From contig NZ_BAEE01000062.1 of the NCBI RefSeq assembly GCF_000241265.1, positions 1-64,000 of the forward strand: a stretch of 64,000 nt of DNA, read 5' to 3'. The notes below the pieces were generated by a model. It did not search any database and was not told the origin of the DNA. It saw only the letters and a list, made by a program, of their open reading frames with translations. The translations under genes were made by a program, and so were the position numbers. Shown one piece after another: positions 34,959-41,985 of the stretch; within the stretch, counting starts at the first letter, position 1, and every line of letters begins with the position of its first letter. The stretch is from Gordonia araii NBRC 100433 (GTDB taxonomy: Bacteria; Actinomycetota; Actinomycetes; Mycobacteriales; Mycobacteriaceae).

Positions 34959-35721
34959 CTTCCTCCCGATCGGGTCCGCGTTTCCCGACGGGATTGCGTC
35001 GGGATGTGCGGATCGGTGCGGGAGGAATGAGCGCGACGATCGCCCCGACGACGAGTTCGTGCGAGCCGAGGGCCCCGGCGATCGGGCTGCCGGGGGCGTG
35101 TTCGTCGATGAGCGCCTCGACGCGCTCGGTCAAGAGCCCGGGGGAGAGGAAGTACGGGAGGCCGACGACGCGGCCCGCGCCTGTCGTGCGCAGCCGGTCG
35201 ATGGCGTCGCGCAGCGCGAACCCGTCCGGGCCGAGTTTCGTCGCGAACACGACCTCGACCGGATGACCGAGGTGGCGGCCCAGTTCGGCGCCGCGCCGCC
35301 GGGCGGCATCGTCGGAGCGCTCGTCGGAGGAACCGACCGCGTACATCACGATGCCGTCGCCGGTGCGCAGGCCCGCGGCGCGCACTCGGTCGGCGAGAGA
35401 GCCGGTGAGGTCGGCGGATCCGAGTACCGGTGATTGCGTCATCTCTACCGCAGGCCACCGCCGCCGGGCGGCGTCGAGGAGCACCGGCAGGTCGAACCGG
35501 CTGTGGTAACCGTCGCCGAGAAGCAGGGGAATGACGGTGACCGGCTCGCCGGTCTGGGCGAGCTCGTCGAGCACGGTGCCGACCAGCGGCTCGTTGAGGT
35601 CGAGGTAGGCCAACTCGACGCGCGTCGTCGGCACCGCGGCGCGTACCGCGTCGCGAATGCCCGTGACCCTCAGGGCGAACCGGGAGTCCCGGCTGCCGTG
35701 CGCGACGAGGAGGACGCTCAT
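34927..35721 (-). CDS. Sirohydrochlorin chelatase (CbiX/SirB-like)
   Basis: 264 aa. MSVLLVAHGSRD at the N terminus and a second half LGDGYHSRFD and PYFLSPGLL mark the chelatase superfamily. It inserts iron in siroheme synthesis, the cofactor of SirA in the same operon. Equivalent to Rv2393 (che1). Starts on ATGA overlap with cysN. Its C-terminal 40 residues are basic and may be a tail of no function. Confidence 0.88.
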   Translation of the reverse strand: MSVLLVAHGSRDSRFALRVTGIRDAVRAAVPTTRVELAYLDLNEPLVGTVLDELAQTGEPVTVIPLLLGDGYHSRFDLPVLLDAARRRWPAVEMTQSPVLGSADLTGSLADRVRAAGLRTGDGIVMYAVGSSDERSDDAARRRGAELGRHLGHPVEVVFATKLGPDGFALRDAIDRLRTTGAGRVVGLPYFLSPGLLTERVEALIDEHAPGSPIAGALGSHELVVGAIVALIPPAPIRTSRRNPVGKRGPDREEATESAPARTR

Positions 35722-37019
35722 GCCGGGACCGAAAGGTGAAGCGTCTCCAGCGCGTCGCCGACGAGCCCGGCGGCGAGCGTGTTGCCGCCCGCGGGATCGA
35801 TGAGCAGGAAGCTGCCCGATTCGCGGCTGTGGCTGTAGTCGTCGGCGACGATGGGATCGGCGGTCTGCACCGAGATCCGCCCGATCTGGTTGAGCTCCAG
35901 CGATTCTGGCGCGTCGACCAGGGCGAGTTCCTGCTCGTCGAAGAGCACGTCGAGCGAGCCCACAATGGCCTGGGTGGTCCGGGTCCCGTGCTTGAGAAGC
36001 AGGCGCGCGCCCGGCCGCAGTGCTTTGTCGCCGAGCCAGCACACCGTCGCGGTGAACTGCTGGATCGGTTCGGGTGCATCGGCCACCGCCGCGATGACGT
36101 CACCCCGCGAGACGTCGACGTCATCGGCGAGTAGCAGCGTCACGCTGTGTCCCGCGCCGGCGGTGGCGAGCTGGCCGTCGGCGGTGTCGATCGCCTCGAC
36201 CGTGGTGCGGGTCCCCGACGGGAGGATGACCACCTCGTCGCCGGGTGAAACCGTGCCGGCCGCGATCTGGCCCGCGTAGCCGCGGTAATCCGGGAACTCC
36301 GCGGTGCGCGGCCGGATGACGTACTGCACCGGGAAGCGCAGTCCGACGGGGTCGCCGGCGCGCTCGTGGATGTTGGGGACCGTCTCCAAGTGCTCGATGA
36401 GCGTCGGGCCGTCGTAGTAGGGCGTGCGGTCGGACCGGTTCGCGATGTTGTCGCCGTGCAGCGCGGACACCGGGATTGCCAGCACCTGCTCGTCGGTCCA
36501 GCCGAGTGAACGCGTCAGCTCCGCGAAGTCGGCGGTGATCCGCGGGAAGACTTCCTCCGCGTTAGCCACGAGGTCGACCTTGTTGACCGCGAGGACCAGC
36601 TGGGGCACGCCGAGCAGCGCCATGACCGCCGCGTGACGGCGGGTCTGGGCGACGACGCCGTTGCGGGCGTCGACCAGCAGGATCACCAGCTGGGCGGTGG
36701 AGGCGCCGGAGACGGTGTTGCGGGTGTACTGGACGTGGCCCGGGGTGTCGGCGAGTACGAAGGAGCGCTCGGCGGTCGCGAAGTACCGGTAGGCCACGTC
36801 GATCGTGATGCCCTGCTCGCGCTCGGCGCGCAGACCGTCGACGAGCAGCGACAAGTCGGGGCCGTCGAGTCCGCGGGCCGTCGACGCTCGGTTGACCGCC
36901 TCGATCTGGTCGGCGAGCACCGACTTCGTGTCGTAGAGCAGGCGGCCGACGAGCGTCGACTTCCCGTCGTCGACGCTGCCCGCCGTGGCGATCCGCAGCA
37001 GGTCGGGGGAGTGCTTCAT
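35718..37019 (-). CDS. cysN: Sulfate adenylyltransferase subunit 1 (GTPase) CysN
   Basis: 433 aa. G1 GSVDDGKST (14-22), DTPGH and NKVD motifs. With CysD it makes APS from sulfate and ATP, driven by GTP hydrolysis. There is no C-terminal CysC (APS kinase) fusion, unlike the M. tuberculosis CysNC protein. ATGA overlaps on both sides. Confidence 0.96.
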   Translation of the reverse strand: MKHSPDLLRIATAGSVDDGKSTLVGRLLYDTKSVLADQIEAVNRASTARGLDGPDLSLLVDGLRAEREQGITIDVAYRYFATAERSFVLADTPGHVQYTRNTVSGASTAQLVILLVDARNGVVAQTRRHAAVMALLGVPQLVLAVNKVDLVANAEEVFPRITADFAELTRSLGWTDEQVLAIPVSALHGDNIANRSDRTPYYDGPTLIEHLETVPNIHERAGDPVGLRFPVQYVIRPRTAEFPDYRGYAGQIAAGTVSPGDEVVILPSGTRTTVEAIDTADGQLATAGAGHSVTLLLADDVDVSRGDVIAAVADAPEPIQQFTATVCWLGDKALRPGARLLLKHGTRTTQAIVGSLDVLFDEQELALVDAPESLELNQIGRISVQTADPIVADDYSHSRESGSFLLIDPAGGNTLAAGLVGDALETLHLSVPA

Positions 37020-37960
37020 CAGAAATATCCTTCGCGCTTGCGGTCTTCCATGGCGGCCTCGGACACGCGGTCGTCACCGCGCGTGGCGCCGCGCTCGGTC
37101 AGGCGGGAGGTGGCCACCTCGGCCAGTACGGCCTCGTTGTCGGCGGCATCGGACAGGACCGCCCCGGTGGTCGAGCCGTCGCCGACGGTACGGTAGCGCA
37201 CCGAGCGGGTCTCGACGGTCTCGCCGTCGCGCGGTCCGCCCCACGGCCCGGCGGTCATCCACATGCCGTCGCGGGAGAACACCTCGCGCTCGTGCGCGTA
37301 GTACAGCGGGGCGAGCAGAACCTGTTCGCGAGCGATGTAGCGCCACACGTCGAGTTCGGTCCAGTTGCTCAACGGGAACACGCGGACATGCTCGCCCGGC
37401 GCGTGACGGCCGTTGTAGAGGTTCCACAGCTCGGGGCGCTGACGCTTGGGATCCCACTGGCCGAAGGCGTTGCGCAGCGAGAACACGCGCTCCTTGGCGC
37501 GGGCGCGCTCCTCGTCGCGGCGGGCGCCGCCGAACACCGCGTCGAAGCGGTTCTCGGTGATCGCGTCGAGCAGCGGGATCGTCTGCAGCGGGTTGCGGAT
37601 GCCGTCGGGACGCTCGGTGAGCCGGCCGTCGGCGAGGTACTCCTCGACGCTGGCGACGTGCAGCCGCAGGTTGTGGCGCTCGACGATCTCGTCGCGGAAC
37701 TGGATGATCTCCGGCAGGTTGTGGCCGGTGTCGACGTGCAGCAGCGAGAACGGCAGCGGTGCCGGCCAGAAGGCCTTGAGCGCCAGGTGCAGCAGCAGCG
37801 TCGAATCCTTGCCGCCGGAGAACAGGATCACCGGGCGCTCGAACTCGCCGGCCACCTCCCGGAAGATATGGATGGACTCCGACTCCAGTGCATCGAGAGT
37901 GTCGAATTCGTCGCCGGTCTTGGCGACGGCGAGGACGGAGGTCTGGGTATCGATGCTCAT
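37019..37960 (-). CDS. cysD: Sulfate adenylyltransferase subunit 2 CysD
   Basis: 313 aa, usual size. PP-loop SGGKDS at 48-53; nucleotide-binding and sulfate-activating subunit, partner of CysN. ATG at 37960 overlaps the cysH stop; an upstream frame extension is just the shadow of cysH. Confidence 0.96.
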   Translation of the reverse strand: MSIDTQTSVLAVAKTGDEFDTLDALESESIHIFREVAGEFERPVILFSGGKDSTLLLHLALKAFWPAPLPFSLLHVDTGHNLPEIIQFRDEIVERHNLRLHVASVEEYLADGRLTERPDGIRNPLQTIPLLDAITENRFDAVFGGARRDEERARAKERVFSLRNAFGQWDPKRQRPELWNLYNGRHAPGEHVRVFPLSNWTELDVWRYIAREQVLLAPLYYAHEREVFSRDGMWMTAGPWGGPRDGETVETRSVRYRTVGDGSTTGAVLSDAADNEAVLAEVATSRLTERGATRGDDRVSEAAMEDRKREGYF

Positions 37961-38688
37961 GAGACGTGCAACCCGCATTCTGTCTTGGCGCGCCCGGCCC
38001 AACGGCCGCTGCGCGGATCGGCTCCGATAGCTGGCTTCGCGGTGCACGGCGCGCACCCGATCGAGGGGTAGCCCTCGTCCACCAGCGGATTCACGAGGAC
38101 ACCGTGGTCCTCGATGTAGGTCTGGAATTCCTCGTCCGACCAGGCGGCCAACGGGTTGATCTTCACCAACCCGAAGCCCTCGTCGAAGGAGATCAACGGC
38201 GAGTTGGCGCGCGTGGGCGCCTCGACGCGGCGGATGCCGGTCACCCAGGCGGAATATCCGGCCAGCGACTTGCTCAGCGGTACGACCTTGCGCAGCCGGC
38301 AGCATTCGCCCGGGTCGCGGGAGAACAGGTCCTTGCCGAGCAGGGCGTCCTGCTGGGCGACGGTCTGCTCGGGGGTGACGTTGACCAAGTCGAGGTCATA
38401 GACCTGCGTCACCGCGTCGCGGGTGCCGATGGTCTCCGCGAAGTGGTACCCGGTGTCGAGGAAGAGCACCTTGAGCTTCTGGTGGTCGATGGTCGCCGGA
38501 TCGATGGCCTTGTCGGCGACATCGATGAGCACCGCGTCCTGCATGTTCGCCGCGATGATGAAATCGGTGCCGAAGGTCTCGGCGGTCCAGCGAAGCAGTT
38601 CCTCCGCGGTGGCGTCGGGGCCGAGTTCGGCCGCACCGCGCGCGGCGATGTCGCGCAAGTGGTCGACGTCGGAGGTAGCGGTGGTCAT
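37957..38688 (-). CDS. cysH: Adenylyl-sulfate (APS) reductase CysH
   Basis: 243 aa. Cys129-Cys130 and the CAPC pair 212-215 are the four ligands of a [4Fe-4S] cluster, characteristic of APS (not PAPS) reductases. The catalytic cysteine is Cys238 in ECGLH. Reduces APS to sulfite with thioredoxin. ATGA overlap with sirA and cysD. Confidence 0.95.
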   Translation of the reverse strand: MTTATSDVDHLRDIAARGAAELGPDATAEELLRWTAETFGTDFIIAANMQDAVLIDVADKAIDPATIDHQKLKVLFLDTGYHFAETIGTRDAVTQVYDLDLVNVTPEQTVAQQDALLGKDLFSRDPGECCRLRKVVPLSKSLAGYSAWVTGIRRVEAPTRANSPLISFDEGFGLVKINPLAAWSDEEFQTYIEDHGVLVNPLVDEGYPSIGCAPCTAKPAIGADPRSGRWAGRAKTECGLHVS

Positions 38689-40466
38689 CGCAGCCACTCC
38701 TCGTCTGCGCGCACGGCCCACTGGGCGAATCGTTCGCCGTCCTCGCGGTGTTCGATGAAGTTGCGGACAACGCGCTCGATGTAGTCGCCCAGTTCCGCGG
38801 TGGCCACCTTGTGCTGGCGCAGTTTGCGACCGAAGCCCGAATCCAGGCCGAGGCTGCCGCCGAGGTGAACCTGGAAGCCCTCGCTGGGCTTGCCGTCTTC
38901 ACCCTCGATGAGCTGGCCCTTGAAGCCGATATCGGCGATCTGCGACCGCGCGCAGGAGTTGGGGCAGCCGTTGATGTTGACGGTGACGGGCACGTCGAGC
39001 TGCTCGTTGATGTCGGCGAGTCGCGCTTCCAGCTCGGGGACGAGGTCCTGGGAGCGCTTGCGGGTCTCGGTGAACGACAGCTTGCAGAACTCGATGCCGC
39101 TGCACGCCATGAGGTTGCGGCGCCAGTTCGACGGGCGCCCCTGCAGGCCGAGCTTCGCCAGCTCGGCGATCAAACCGTCGACCTGGTCGTCGGGCACGTC
39201 CAGGACGATCAGCTTCTGGTACGGGGTGAACCGAACCTGATCCGATCCGACCAGTTCGGCGGCGTCGGCGACCTTCTGCAGGATCGTGCCGGACACGCGA
39301 CCGGCAATCGGCGAGAAGCCGACCGCATTGAGGCCGTTCTTCTGGCGGGTGACGCCGACGTGGTCGATGGGGTGGGCCAGCGGCGCAGGTGCCGGACCGT
39401 CGATCAGCTTGCGCTCCAGGTACTCGTCCTCGAGGACCTGACGGAACTTCTCGATGCCCCAGTCCTTGATCAAGAACTTCAACCGGGCCTTGTTGCGCAG
39501 TCGGCGATAGCCGTAGTCGCGGAAGATCGAGACCACGGCTTCCCACACATCGGGAACCTCGTCGAGGGGCACCCAGGCGCCCACGCGCTGCGCGAGCATC
39601 GGATTGGTCGAGAGCCCTCCGCCGACCCAGAGATCCAGGCCGGGGCCGTGCTCGGGATGATTCACGCCGATGAAGGCGACATCGTTGATCTCGTGCGCCA
39701 CGTCTTGCAGGCCGGAGATCGCGGTCTTGAACTTGCGCGGCAGGTTCGAATACTTCGGATCGCCGATGTAGCGGCGCACGATCTCGTCGATGGCCGGTGT
39801 CGGGTCCAGCACCTCGTCGACCGAGACGCCGGCCAACGGGGATCCGAGGACCACGCGCGGGCAGTCGCCGCACGCCTCGGTGGTTTTGAGGCCAACGTCG
39901 TCGAGGCGCTGCCAGATCGCCGGGACGTCCTCGACGCGGATCCAGTGGTACTGGACGTTTTCGCGGTCGGACAGGTCGGCGGTGTTGCGCGCGTACTCGG
40001 TGGAGAGTTCACCGAGGGTGCGCAGTTGCCTGGCCGAGAGGGCGCCCCCGTCGCAGCGGACCCGCATCATGAAGTACGGCGCTTCGAGGAGGTCGAGATC
40101 TTCGGGTTCGTCGCCGGTGAAGGTGCCGTCGTAGCCCTCGGCGCGCTGGGTGTAGAGACCCCACCAGCGGAAGCGGCCGCGCAGGTCGGCTTTGTCGATG
40201 CCGTCGAACCCGACCTTCGAGTAGATGTTCTCGATCCGGGCGCGGACGTTGAGCGGGTTGTCGTCCTTCTTGGACTGTTCGTTGGGGTTCAGCGGTTCCC
40301 GGTAGCCCAGGGCCCACTGGCCCTCGGCGCGGCGCTTGGCCGGTCGTGCCCGGCGGGCAGGCCGTTCACCGGCGGCCTTGTCACCCGTCGGACGGGTGCG
40401 GGCGGGCCGCTTGGCGGAGTTGGCGTCGACGTTGTCGTCGACCGACTCCGGGGTCGTGAGCGTCAT
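38685..40466 (-). CDS. sirA: Ferredoxin-dependent sulfite reductase
   Basis: 593 aa. Siroheme and [4Fe-4S] ligands are C455, C461, C501 and C505 (ACSGIEFC and NGCPNSC). Two nitrite/sulfite reductase half-domains are present. Converts sulfite to sulfide with six electrons from ferredoxin. A basic N-terminal tail of about 50 residues precedes the core. AAGGAGA precedes the ATG. It is the first gene of the operon, behind a leader peptide. Rv2391 (nirA) equivalent. Confidence 0.95.
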   Translation of the reverse strand: MTLTTPESVDDNVDANSAKRPARTRPTGDKAAGERPARRARPAKRRAEGQWALGYREPLNPNEQSKKDDNPLNVRARIENIYSKVGFDGIDKADLRGRFRWWGLYTQRAEGYDGTFTGDEPEDLDLLEAPYFMMRVRCDGGALSARQLRTLGELSTEYARNTADLSDRENVQYHWIRVEDVPAIWQRLDDVGLKTTEACGDCPRVVLGSPLAGVSVDEVLDPTPAIDEIVRRYIGDPKYSNLPRKFKTAISGLQDVAHEINDVAFIGVNHPEHGPGLDLWVGGGLSTNPMLAQRVGAWVPLDEVPDVWEAVVSIFRDYGYRRLRNKARLKFLIKDWGIEKFRQVLEDEYLERKLIDGPAPAPLAHPIDHVGVTRQKNGLNAVGFSPIAGRVSGTILQKVADAAELVGSDQVRFTPYQKLIVLDVPDDQVDGLIAELAKLGLQGRPSNWRRNLMACSGIEFCKLSFTETRKRSQDLVPELEARLADINEQLDVPVTVNINGCPNSCARSQIADIGFKGQLIEGEDGKPSEGFQVHLGGSLGLDSGFGRKLRQHKVATAELGDYIERVVRNFIEHREDGERFAQWAVRADEEWLR

Positions 40467-40528
40467 GGAATCTCCTTGCGCAACGCACTGTGCGCAGCGT
40501 TCATGGGGCTGTCATGAAGGGGTGACGC

Positions 40529-40596
40529 GGATTCGGCATCCGGGAATCGGTGCGCTGCGCTGCGCGACCGGAGGGGACTACTCGCTGGCCGAATCC
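40529..40596 (-). promoter_or_regulatory. Inverted repeat in sirA leader, attenuator candidate
   Basis: GGATTCGGC (40529-40537) and GCCGAATCC (40588-40596) are perfect 9-bp arms 50 nt apart, lying just after the leader ORF stop (40599). Nearer the sirA start, TGCGCA at 40477-40482 and 40491-40496 can also pair next to the AAGGAGA site. The layout suggests control by alternative RNA structure; this is inferred, not shown. Confidence 0.5.
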
Positions 40597-40598
40597 GG

Positions 40599-40679
40599 CT
40601 AGCGCATACAGGATGCGCTGTCGCAGCGCATGAGGTCGATGTGGCGCCGCTGGATCAGGCGCAGTCCTCGTGTAGTCAC
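40599..40679 (-). CDS. 26-residue leader peptide of the sulfur operon
   Basis: GTG at 40679 to TAG at 40599. The peptide contains RRHIDLMR and then CDSASC, the pattern (R-R-H-[IV]-D-L-x-R ... C) of actinobacterial leader peptides placed before sulfur-metabolism genes, as I recall. Cys19 and Cys24 make it a plausible cysteine sensor. The GTG lies 7 bp after a CACTAT -10 box, so the mRNA is probably leaderless. sirA follows after 132 bp. Confidence 0.75.
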   Translation of the reverse strand: MTTRGLRLIQRRHIDLMRCDSASCMR

Positions 40680-40686
40680 GCTCTCC

Positions 40687-40716
40687 ATAGTGCCACGTCT
40701 CACCGCACCTCGTCTA
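40687..40716 (-). promoter_or_regulatory. Probable promoter of the sulfur operon (leftward)
   Basis: On the leftward strand TAGACG (40711-40716) and CACTAT (40687-40692) are spaced 18 bp, a fair match to the sigma-70 type -35 and -10. The -10 ends 7 bp before the leader GTG. No experimental start is known. Confidence 0.5.
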
Positions 40717-40755
40717 CTTGGGAAGACTTTGGATCATGATGAGAGAAACAGATCA

Positions 40756-40774
40756 CATCGCGCGATGCGCGATG
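40756..40774. promoter_or_regulatory. Perfect 19-bp palindrome just before hemW
   Basis: CATCGCGC-GAT-GCGCGATG, perfect 8-bp arms with a 3-nt centre, ending 8 bp before the hemW ATG. Could be an operator or an RNA hairpin masking the ribosome binding site. Confidence 0.6.
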
Positions 40775-40782
40775 ATGGGGAC

Positions 40783-41985
40783 ATGACCTCCACCGCCGCC
40801 GTCGAGTGGCGAGACGTGCCGCTGCCGCTCGCCGACCGGCTGCGCCATGCGCGCAACGGCGACGACCTCGGTCTCTATCTGCACGTCCCGTTCTGTGCGA
40901 CTCGCTGCGGCTACTGCGACTTCAACACCTACACGGCTGGCGAGCTGGGGTCCTCGTCGTCGCCGCAGTCCTGGCTTGAGGCGGTGCGTCGCGAACTCGA
41001 CGGCGCGGCGCTCATGCTCGGCCCGCGACCGGTGTCGACGGTGTTCGTGGGCGGCGGTACGCCGTCGCTGCTCGGGGCCGACGGCTTGGGCGACTTGCTC
41101 GCCGCGGTACGGGCGAGCTTCGATCTCGCGCCCGGGGCGGAGGTGACGACGGAGTCGAATCCCGAATCGACGTCGCCGGCCTTCTTCGAACAGATCCGGC
41201 TCGCCGGTTACACGCGCGTGTCGCTGGGGATGCAGTCGGCGGCGGCGCACGTACTCGCGATCCTGGAACGCACGCACACGCCCGGCCGAGCGGTCGCGGC
41301 GGCGCGTGAGGCGACGGCCGCGGGCTTCGACCACGTCAACCTCGACGTCATCTACGGCACGCCGGGGGAGTCGGACGCCGATCTCGATGCGACACTCGAC
41401 GCCGTCCTGTCGGCCCCGGTCGACCACGTCTCCGCCTACGCGCTCATCGTCGAGGACGGCACCGCTTTCGCGCGCAAAGTGCGCCGCGGCGAACTCGCGG
41501 CACCCGACGACGATGTGCTGGCGGCGCGCTACGAGCGCATCGACGCACGGCTCGGTGCCGCCGGTTTCGACTGGTACGAGGTGTCGAACTGGGCGCGAGG
41601 AGCCGACGGCGCCTGCCGGCACAACGAGGCCTATTGGCGCAGCGACGACTGGTGGGGAATCGGCCCCGGTGCGCACTCGCACGTCGCCGGGGCGCGGTGG
41701 TGGAATCGCAAGCACCCGTCGACCTACGCGTCGGCCCTGACCGAGGGCGGCTGGCCCGGCGACGGCTTCGAGATCCTTTCCGCCGCCGACGCGCACACCG
41801 AGGCCGTCATGCTGCGGATGCGCATGCGTTCGGGATTGCCCGCCGACATCCTCGACGGCGACGAGCGGCGGCGTGCCGACGAGGCCGTGGCCGCCGGGCT
41901 GCTGCGGGTCGCCGACGGTGGGTACGTGCTCACCGACGCGGGGCGCTTGCTCGCCGACGGCGTGGTGCGTCAGATCCTCGATTAG
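40783..41985 (+). CDS. hemW: Radical SAM protein HemW (heme chaperone)
   Basis: 400 aa. The 4Fe-4S cluster motif CxxxCxxC is at C38, C42 and C45. HemW is the anaerobic-coproporphyrinogen-oxidase-like chaperone that transfers heme. ATG 40783 is chosen; upstream in-frame codons lie over the leader promoter. Rv2388c equivalent. Its stop is separated by 2 bp from the end of the opposing gene. Confidence 0.93.
   Translation: MTSTAAVEWRDVPLPLADRLRHARNGDDLGLYLHVPFCATRCGYCDFNTYTAGELGSSSSPQSWLEAVRRELDGAALMLGPRPVSTVFVGGGTPSLLGADGLGDLLAAVRASFDLAPGAEVTTESNPESTSPAFFEQIRLAGYTRVSLGMQSAAAHVLAILERTHTPGRAVAAAREATAAGFDHVNLDVIYGTPGESDADLDATLDAVLSAPVDHVSAYALIVEDGTAFARKVRRGELAAPDDDVLAARYERIDARLGAAGFDWYEVSNWARGADGACRHNEAYWRSDDWWGIGPGAHSHVAGARWWNRKHPSTYASALTEGGWPGDGFEILSAADAHTEAVMLRMRMRSGLPADILDGDERRRADEAVAAGLLRVADGGYVLTDAGRLLADGVVRQILD

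Follow-up and report, generated by a model that had tools for sequence, protein, structure and literature searches.

The window analysed here, a 64,000-nt stretch of Gordonia araii DNA, carries a sulfate assimilation gene set preceded by a short ORF with two separated cysteine codons. The locus raises the question of whether a leader peptide with so few cysteines could sense cysteine, and through which of its codons. We find that the feature belongs to a known class of cysteine leaders, of which it is a divergent Gordonia form. What is new, at the level of sequence comparison, is a single invariant UGU cysteine codon at a fixed spacing behind a conserved peptide. We consider it likely that the leaderless ORF controls sirA-cysH-cysD-cysN in response to cysteine through a ribosome stall at this codon (UGU24).

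Results

A leader ORF and promoter upstream of sirA

The ORF lies on the minus strand between sirA and the divergent hemW (about 40771-41985, plus strand). It starts with GTG at 40679, runs for 26 codons to 40602, encodes the peptide VTTRGLRLIQRRHIDLMRCDSASCMR and is closed by a TAG at 40601-40599, leaving a gap of 132 nt before sirA (Table 1). Its promoter reads TAGACG-18 nt-CACTAT, with TGG preceding the -10 hexamer, and CACTAT ends at 40687, 7 nt upstream of the GTG. The first-pass annotation of this DNA had described a 26-codon ORF 7 bp after a plausible -10, and both ORF and promoter proved to be above chance. In 119 distinct relatives, the distance from the end of TGGCANNNT to the start codon was 7 nt in 104, 6 nt in 11 and 8 nt in one, the element being unmatched in three. 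An in-frame ATG at 40690, upstream of the GTG, lies across the -10, and the relative locus L002 has nothing in frame that corresponds to it, so we take GTG 40679 as the conserved start. For the window leader, the observed promoter spacing points to a 5'-terminal GTG, that is, to a leaderless start. The earlier proposal of a leaderless, cysteine-related leader before the sirA operon has good support from its position, its start codon, the spacing to the promoter and the conservation of the peptide.

Behind the leader come sirA, then cysH, cysD and cysN, the genes of sulfate assimilation, and we infer that leader and genes share one transcript. Two copies of TGCGCA (starts 40496 and 40482, minus strand) stand beside the sirA Shine-Dalgarno (SD) sequence, as had been noted before; shuffles averaged 0.27 copies, and 12 of 500 reached two. 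A scan for intrinsic terminators found none in 40467-40598. Its two hits, overlapping terminator-like hairpins, lie on the minus strand at 40754-40774, upstream of the leader promoter and near the start of the divergent hemW. Rfam gave no family match at E<=1 in the window interval 40300-40900.

Table 1. Coordinates of the leader, its RNA elements and the genes behind it
Feature	Position	Strand	Basis
-35-like TAGACG within AAGTAGACG	40711..40716	-	sequence; AAGTAGAC upstream of the leader in 30/33 distinct Gordonia loci
Extended -10 TGGCACTAT	40687..40695	-	TGGCANNNT 6-8 nt before the start codon in 116/119 distinct relatives
Leaderless leader ORF, 26 codons + TAG, GTG at inferred +1 (40679)	40599..40679	-	ORF, conservation
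Hairpin 1:2, 8 bp, 3-nt loop, ATGCGCTG-CGA-CAGCGCAT, codons 17-22	40613..40631	-	folding
Cys codon 19 (TGC)	40623..40625	-	same Cys at 20 or absent in relatives
Hairpin 2:3, 7 bp, AGCGCAT-CCTGT-ATGCGCT, UGU codon in loop	40601..40619	-	RNAalifold
Cys codon 24 (TGT), proposed control codon	40608..40610	-	invariant in comparison
Stop-codon hairpin CGCT-A-GCCG-GATT-CGGC-C-AGCG	40583..40604	-	folding; loop is the part varying in close relatives
Inverted repeat, left arm, 10 bp	40588..40597	-	repeat search
Inverted repeat, right arm, 10 bp	40528..40537	-	repeat search
sirA Shine-Dalgarno AAGGAG, adjoining TGCGCA-containing hairpin	40472..40477	-	sequence, RNAalifold
sirA/nirA-type sulfite/nitrite reductase, NIR_SIR domains	38685..40466	-	domain matches
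cysH, (P)APS reductase	37957..38721	-	ORF as listed; true start maybe further in
cysD, sulfate adenylyltransferase small subunit	37019..38305	-	ORF as listed; CysD match from residue 137
cysN, sulfate adenylyltransferase large subunit	35718..37019	-	domain matches

Conservation and distribution of the leader

A SirA scan over 84,980 species, each represented by one genome, gave at least 536 confirmed relatives, and we analysed the best 80; among the matches listed, the nearest named relatives were Gordonia. Within these best 80 of at least 536, an RRH[IV]D leader stood upstream of sirA in all 79 loci with enough upstream DNA, the 80th being left out of the leader count since its contig stops 57 bases short of the match. 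Ten codons ahead of RRH, 96 of the 97 leaders located among 99 loci tried have ATG or GTG; the exception, from Aldersonia (L084), has a longer N-terminus and, read by eye, an ATG again 7 nt past the -10. A profile of 19 leaders (E<=1e-4) matched 58 of 59 Gordonia genomes, 58 of 60 genomes of a genus inferred to be Mycobacterium (g18), and 61 of 61 genomes of one inferred to be Streptomyces (g22), the last with 1-10 matches each. At E<=0.01, it matched 25 of 296 genomes sampled from the whole phylum, in several cases weakly. CAGCCC occurs within 240 nt past the leader in 33/33 distinct Gordonia loci, in a stretch that is itself C-rich.

At the peptide level, all of 103 distinct leaders have L8, R18 and C24, with synonymous codons varying, and G5 is present in 100 of them. 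The pN/pS ratio for codons 8-18 is 0.32 when every row is taken and 0.16 within the variant subclade, with pN lowered by the picking of rows by RRH[IV]D, which fixes R11, R12, H13 and D15. Leaders carry from one to seven cysteines, a single one in 24 of 118; the 50 distinct Gordonia leaders have two (36), one (13) or three (1). The window leader, with cysteines at 19 and 24 only and no contiguous cysteine codons, is thus less exceptional than the first-pass annotation supposed, one or two being the number in 49 of these 50. Nor does its motif set it apart as had been claimed: RRHxDLxR is the signature of the known actinobacterial leaders NF042936 and NF042934 (NCBIfam), and we read it as a family signature since all 79 sirA loci carry a leader and the window leader is the positional counterpart of the mycobacterial Ms4527A.

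The window subclade, nine loci in eight genomes with LMRCDSASC, is a divergent form of this family. The window peptide is identical to the leaders of genomes G005, G008 and G015. In G008, which has two of the nine loci, the sirA region occurs twice (L118 and L119) with identical printed peptides on two contigs, one of them short, and this looks like assembly redundancy. From residue 50 onward, the window SirA is 70-74% identical to L002-L006 (73.6% for L005, over residues 50-455) and 83-86% identical to most Gordonia loci with other leaders. This mismatch between SirA and leader possibly reflects gene replacement, or else it comes from the N-terminal region and the alignment. A record titled Maritimibacter sp. 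MAG (L055) holds a Gordonia-like sirA and leader; as Maritimibacter is an alphaproteobacterial name, it is probably a binning error.

Related leaders precede other genes as well. The window genome has a second one, MQTGRELMLTRRYAIDFCRFAACCCR (L123:4520-4810, minus strand), of cysA2 type, before a rhodanese-type sulfurtransferase gene. It resembles leader_Ms5788A (35.4 bits, cut-off 45), and its last cysteine codon is TGT, followed by C. Five other hits to NF042934 in the same genome lie within open frames of 97-1568 residues and were dropped. In other genomes, some leaders with RRHxDLxR precede genes for a sulfatase, a serine acetyltransferase and a Cys/Met PLP enzyme (Pfam). The same Pfam set, ten proteins hand-picked from 26 behind leaders for frames reading well, also included a luciferase-like monooxygenase, binding proteins of the NMT1-like type (two) and of family 5, an ABC permease, a 2OG-Fe(II) oxygenase and one protein with a GST domain.

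Codon 24 is almost always UGU

Codon 24 is TGT in 79 of 79 sirA leaders (70/70 distinct) from the best 80 of at least 536 relatives, and C24 stands at an invariant distance from both the start and the motif. In the sirA frames of the 80 loci (the Gordonia/Nocardia/Rhodococcus set), TGT makes up 9 of 539 cysteine codons (1.7%); these codons come from 76 loci, as the frames of L048, L053, L088 and L113 were read for one codon only, and the Fisher comparison of TGT use in leaders and in sirA takes the genomes as unrelated. In eight reading frames of the window, 2 of 28 cysteine codons are TGT. Codons 1-23 of these 79 leaders hold further cysteines, 67 encoded by TGT and 67 by TGC.

Across several genera, from Gordonia to inferred Streptomyces, 185 of the 189 distinct leaders with a cysteine at 24 have TGT there. 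These 189 were left from 231 distinct matches after 42 without Cys at 24 (among them chance frames and nine g22 leaders) had been excluded, and many came from profile A1, which has C24 in every row and so favours the residue, not the codon. The remaining four have TGC24, two of them (L234 and L248, both g22) with nearly one and the same peptide; the gene after L234 resembles, by eye, a regulator. The nine g22 leaders set aside (L168, L197, L239, L242, L244, L252, L254, L255 and L259) read RRHIDLxRVCSA, with a single cysteine at 20 (TGC) and none at 24, and perhaps represent another sensing mode. A count of 11 C20-only leaders also includes the chance frame L214 and L157, from another genus. 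The gene behind L242 has a GST C-terminal domain. On this sequence evidence, a single invariant cysteine codon, UGU in nearly every case, seems to outweigh runs of cysteine codons.

The base after UGU24 is C in 95% of leaders and A in the window and its three nearest relatives. Since UGU is mostly followed by C, the constraint may in part concern the nucleotides themselves and not their decoding. Codon 21 encodes serine in 77 of the 79 leaders, always as AGC or AGT, which account for 20% of sirA serines; this bias can be inertia, as AGY to TCN takes two changes, whereas TGT to TGC takes one. The RNA polymerase pause consensus, weighed by hand, did not fit at UGU.

Among the genome's 46 tRNA hits, we found one tRNA-Cys, with anticodon GCA, which would read UGU by wobble. 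It carries A36-A37-A38, the target of MiaA/MiaB thiomethylation, and MiaB is encoded in the genome (460 bits, cut-off 355).

A proposed stall at UGU24

In the mechanism that we propose, the ribosome would start at the 5'-terminal GTG of the transcript. Were Cys-tRNA scarce, it would stall mainly at codon 24, a UGU that is decoded by wobble and lies two codons ahead of the stop, and this stall would allow the operon behind to be expressed; with enough cysteine, the ribosome would finish the leader and the operon would stay low. RRHxDLxR, 6-13 residues before codon 24, would lie inside the exit tunnel at that moment and may lengthen the stall. The output step could be either the freeing of the sirA ribosome-binding site, as is reported for M. 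smegmatis leaders, or the blocking of Rho. The first-pass annotation's variant of the polycysteine mechanism is thus plausible by way of the invariant UGU24, not by way of the motif or the number of cysteines.

Several points weaken the cysteine-sensor model: no general SD exposure in simulated stalls and no repeated competing arm (both below), NCBIfam cut-offs that the window peptide does not reach, the nine C20-only leaders of g22, and the C that mostly follows UGU. In the portion of the S. lividans reannotation available to us (PMC8079986), eight leader peptides appear and none is for cysteine, which weakens the model further.

An extension of the stalling model is more speculative, and we hold it to be the less likely case. 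Actinobacterial RRHxDLxR leaders would be single-codon sensors, not counters of codon runs, in which the tunnel-held motif makes UGU24 hypersensitive. Given the thiomethylation target in tRNA-Cys, UGU decoding could report both cysteine charging and sulfur-dependent tRNA modification, and the polycysteine runs of other genera would be later additions.

RNA structure and alternative explanations

For the step after the stall, attenuation by Rho is conceivable but doubtful. Rho would load on the C-rich, ribosome-free gap after leader termination, and a ribosome stalled at codon 24 would cover the entry site, as in the analogous E. coli tna operon. Consistent with this, the stretch between leader and sirA has no intrinsic terminator. 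Seliverstov et al. 2005 (PMC1262725), in the passages available, proposed Rho for the Mycobacterium cys leaders, calling the prediction weak, and also named the E. coli tna operon; on the other side, an excerpt of PMC13236596 cites the M. smegmatis leader work as translation attenuation. All 94 loci have a gap rich in C and poor in G (mean C 0.42, G 0.27), but C-richness is unspecific: in each of the 94, C exceeds G within the sirA coding DNA as well, though less so (0.37/0.32).

Slightly less probable again is sequestration of the SD by alternative hairpins (1:2, 2:3, the stop hairpin or an inverted repeat), from which a stalled ribosome would release it, as reportedly happens in M. smegmatis polycysteine leaders. 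The first-pass annotation had built an attenuator on a perfect 9-bp inverted repeat with 50-nt spacing. The repeat exists, with 10-bp arms 50 nt apart, but is barely beyond chance, a perfect repeat of at least 9 bp turning up in 78 of 500 dinucleotide shuffles of this 250-nt segment. Among three aligned close relatives it is perfect in one and has one uncompensated mismatch in each of the other two, falling in the stop-hairpin loop, and RNAalifold does not pair its two arms with one another. On shuffles, relatives and RNAalifold, we rejected the repeat as a switch, and the attenuator drawn from it falls away.

The local hairpins give sequestration better but uneven support. The window and its three nearest relatives contain overlapping hairpins, and in these relatives a hairpin adjoins the SD. 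Hairpin 2:3 is mutually exclusive with 1:2 and with the stop hairpin. Folded alone, 58 nt of the window form 1:2 together with the stop hairpin, no more than 1.9 sd below shuffles, while RNAalifold on four sequences picks 2:3, not 1:2 (72 pairs, two with a double change). All 8 pairs of 1:2 (G-U allowed) are kept in 8 of 8 distinct variant-subclade leaders, a retention that peptide conservation alone could largely explain. Hairpin 2:3 is intact (7 of 7 pairs) in the window and in the three relatives nearest to it but is broken in the four other variant leaders, with 2-5 of 7. Simulated ribosome stalls (Boltzmann folding of 93 leaders, near-duplicates included) brought no general SD exposure: over codons 11-24, the mean change in SD accessibility was +0.01 to +0.05 and the medians 0.00-0.01, with changes in single sequences such as L009. 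SD sequestration fits the term translation attenuation used for the Cys-codon regulation of M. smegmatis leaders in the accessible part of PMC13236596. A classical hairpin switch is not established here.

It is improbable that RNA structure is the sole constraint, with UGU24 kept for hairpin pairing and cysteine incidental. Non-variant Gordonia have a different, covarying stop-codon hairpin that starts from codon 24 and includes the last two UGU bases, in 21 of 24 distinct leaders, the other three being Williamsia. This hairpin was complete in 16, while 1000 exchanges of 3' halves gave 5.7 on average and at most 11, a control that takes the genomes as unrelated, and a second copy of its arm as competing partner was found in 0 of 26 sequences at p<=0.05. 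In the window subclade, however, the stop hairpin is shifted and UGU is still kept. At its third position, UGU is predicted to be unpaired (p<=0.3) in 44 of 91 leaders; in the others, the partner is an A or G whose distance varies widely, so base pairing does not account for UGU in general. A small protein acting in trans, without regulation in cis, would account for the peptide conservation but is very improbable, given a leader in cis before sirA in 79 loci of the best 80 of at least 536 relatives, a start fixed relative to the promoter, and other RRHxDLxR leaders before other sulfur genes.

Discussion

If stalling at UGU24 is what the leader is kept for, the view of actinobacterial cysteine attenuation as a matter of polycysteine would need correction. 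The constant unit, from Gordonia to inferred Streptomyces, is a peptide motif and one UGU at fixed spacing. UGU24 is constant although UGU is rare in sirA frames, so a synonymous UGU-to-UGC change would test sensing directly. The codon may also help to find sulfur-regulated leaders in other genomes.

Leaders of this kind are already known, from Shell et al. 2015, from Canestrari et al. 2020 by way of citing papers, and from Seliverstov et al. 2005. In the parts of these sources that we could consult, Shell et al. (PMC4633059) describe leaderless small ORFs, one of them upstream of nirA/Msmeg_4527, and suggest cysteine-directed attenuation; PMC9031893, citing Canestrari et al., states that M. 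smegmatis leaderless small ORFs with contiguous cysteine codons regulate downstream translation; and Seliverstov et al. (PMC1262725) predict leader peptides of cys operons in Mycobacterium and P. acnes, without terminators. In the papers accessible to our literature search, we recognised no treatment of the invariant UGU or of a role for RRHxDLxR, though one may be in print.

Measured against the known families, the window peptide scores 20.1 bits with NF042936 (leader_Ms4527A; cut-off 45) and 16.4 bits with NF042934 (cis_reg_atten; cut-off 27), below both. With NF042936, another variant leader reaches 24.4 and four non-variant Gordonia leaders 35.1, 41.3, 42.1 and 46.5, the last above the cut-off; with NF042934, a single-Cys sirA leader of g22 (inferred Streptomyces) passes at 32.9 bits. 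Like the Ms4527A family, the window leader lies directly upstream of sirA/nirA and, judged from the relatives compared here, it also has in common with that family a putative leaderless start, RRHxDLxR and a Cys24 encoded by TGT. It differs in that RVCS is RCDS, K17 is M, and two separated cysteines stand in place of a run. With cis_reg_atten it shares the core RRH[VI]DLxR...C.

As far as the accessible parts of the sources describe them, the M. smegmatis polycysteine ORFs are leaderless, as the window leader is predicted to be, and lie upstream of cysteine genes, with ribosome slowing at cysteine codons, as proposed here; the window leader, unlike them, has no contiguous cysteine codons. The predicted cys leaders of Mycobacterium and P. 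acnes (PMC1262725, in part) also precede a cys operon without a terminator but have runs of cysteine codons near the stop. The uORFC-8-2 motif before cysS in Rhodobacterales (PMC8632094, in part) is similarly a leader with cysteine codons and a proposed ribosome-mediated attenuator, and differs in its tandem cysteine codons, the dominance of UGC and an intrinsic terminator.
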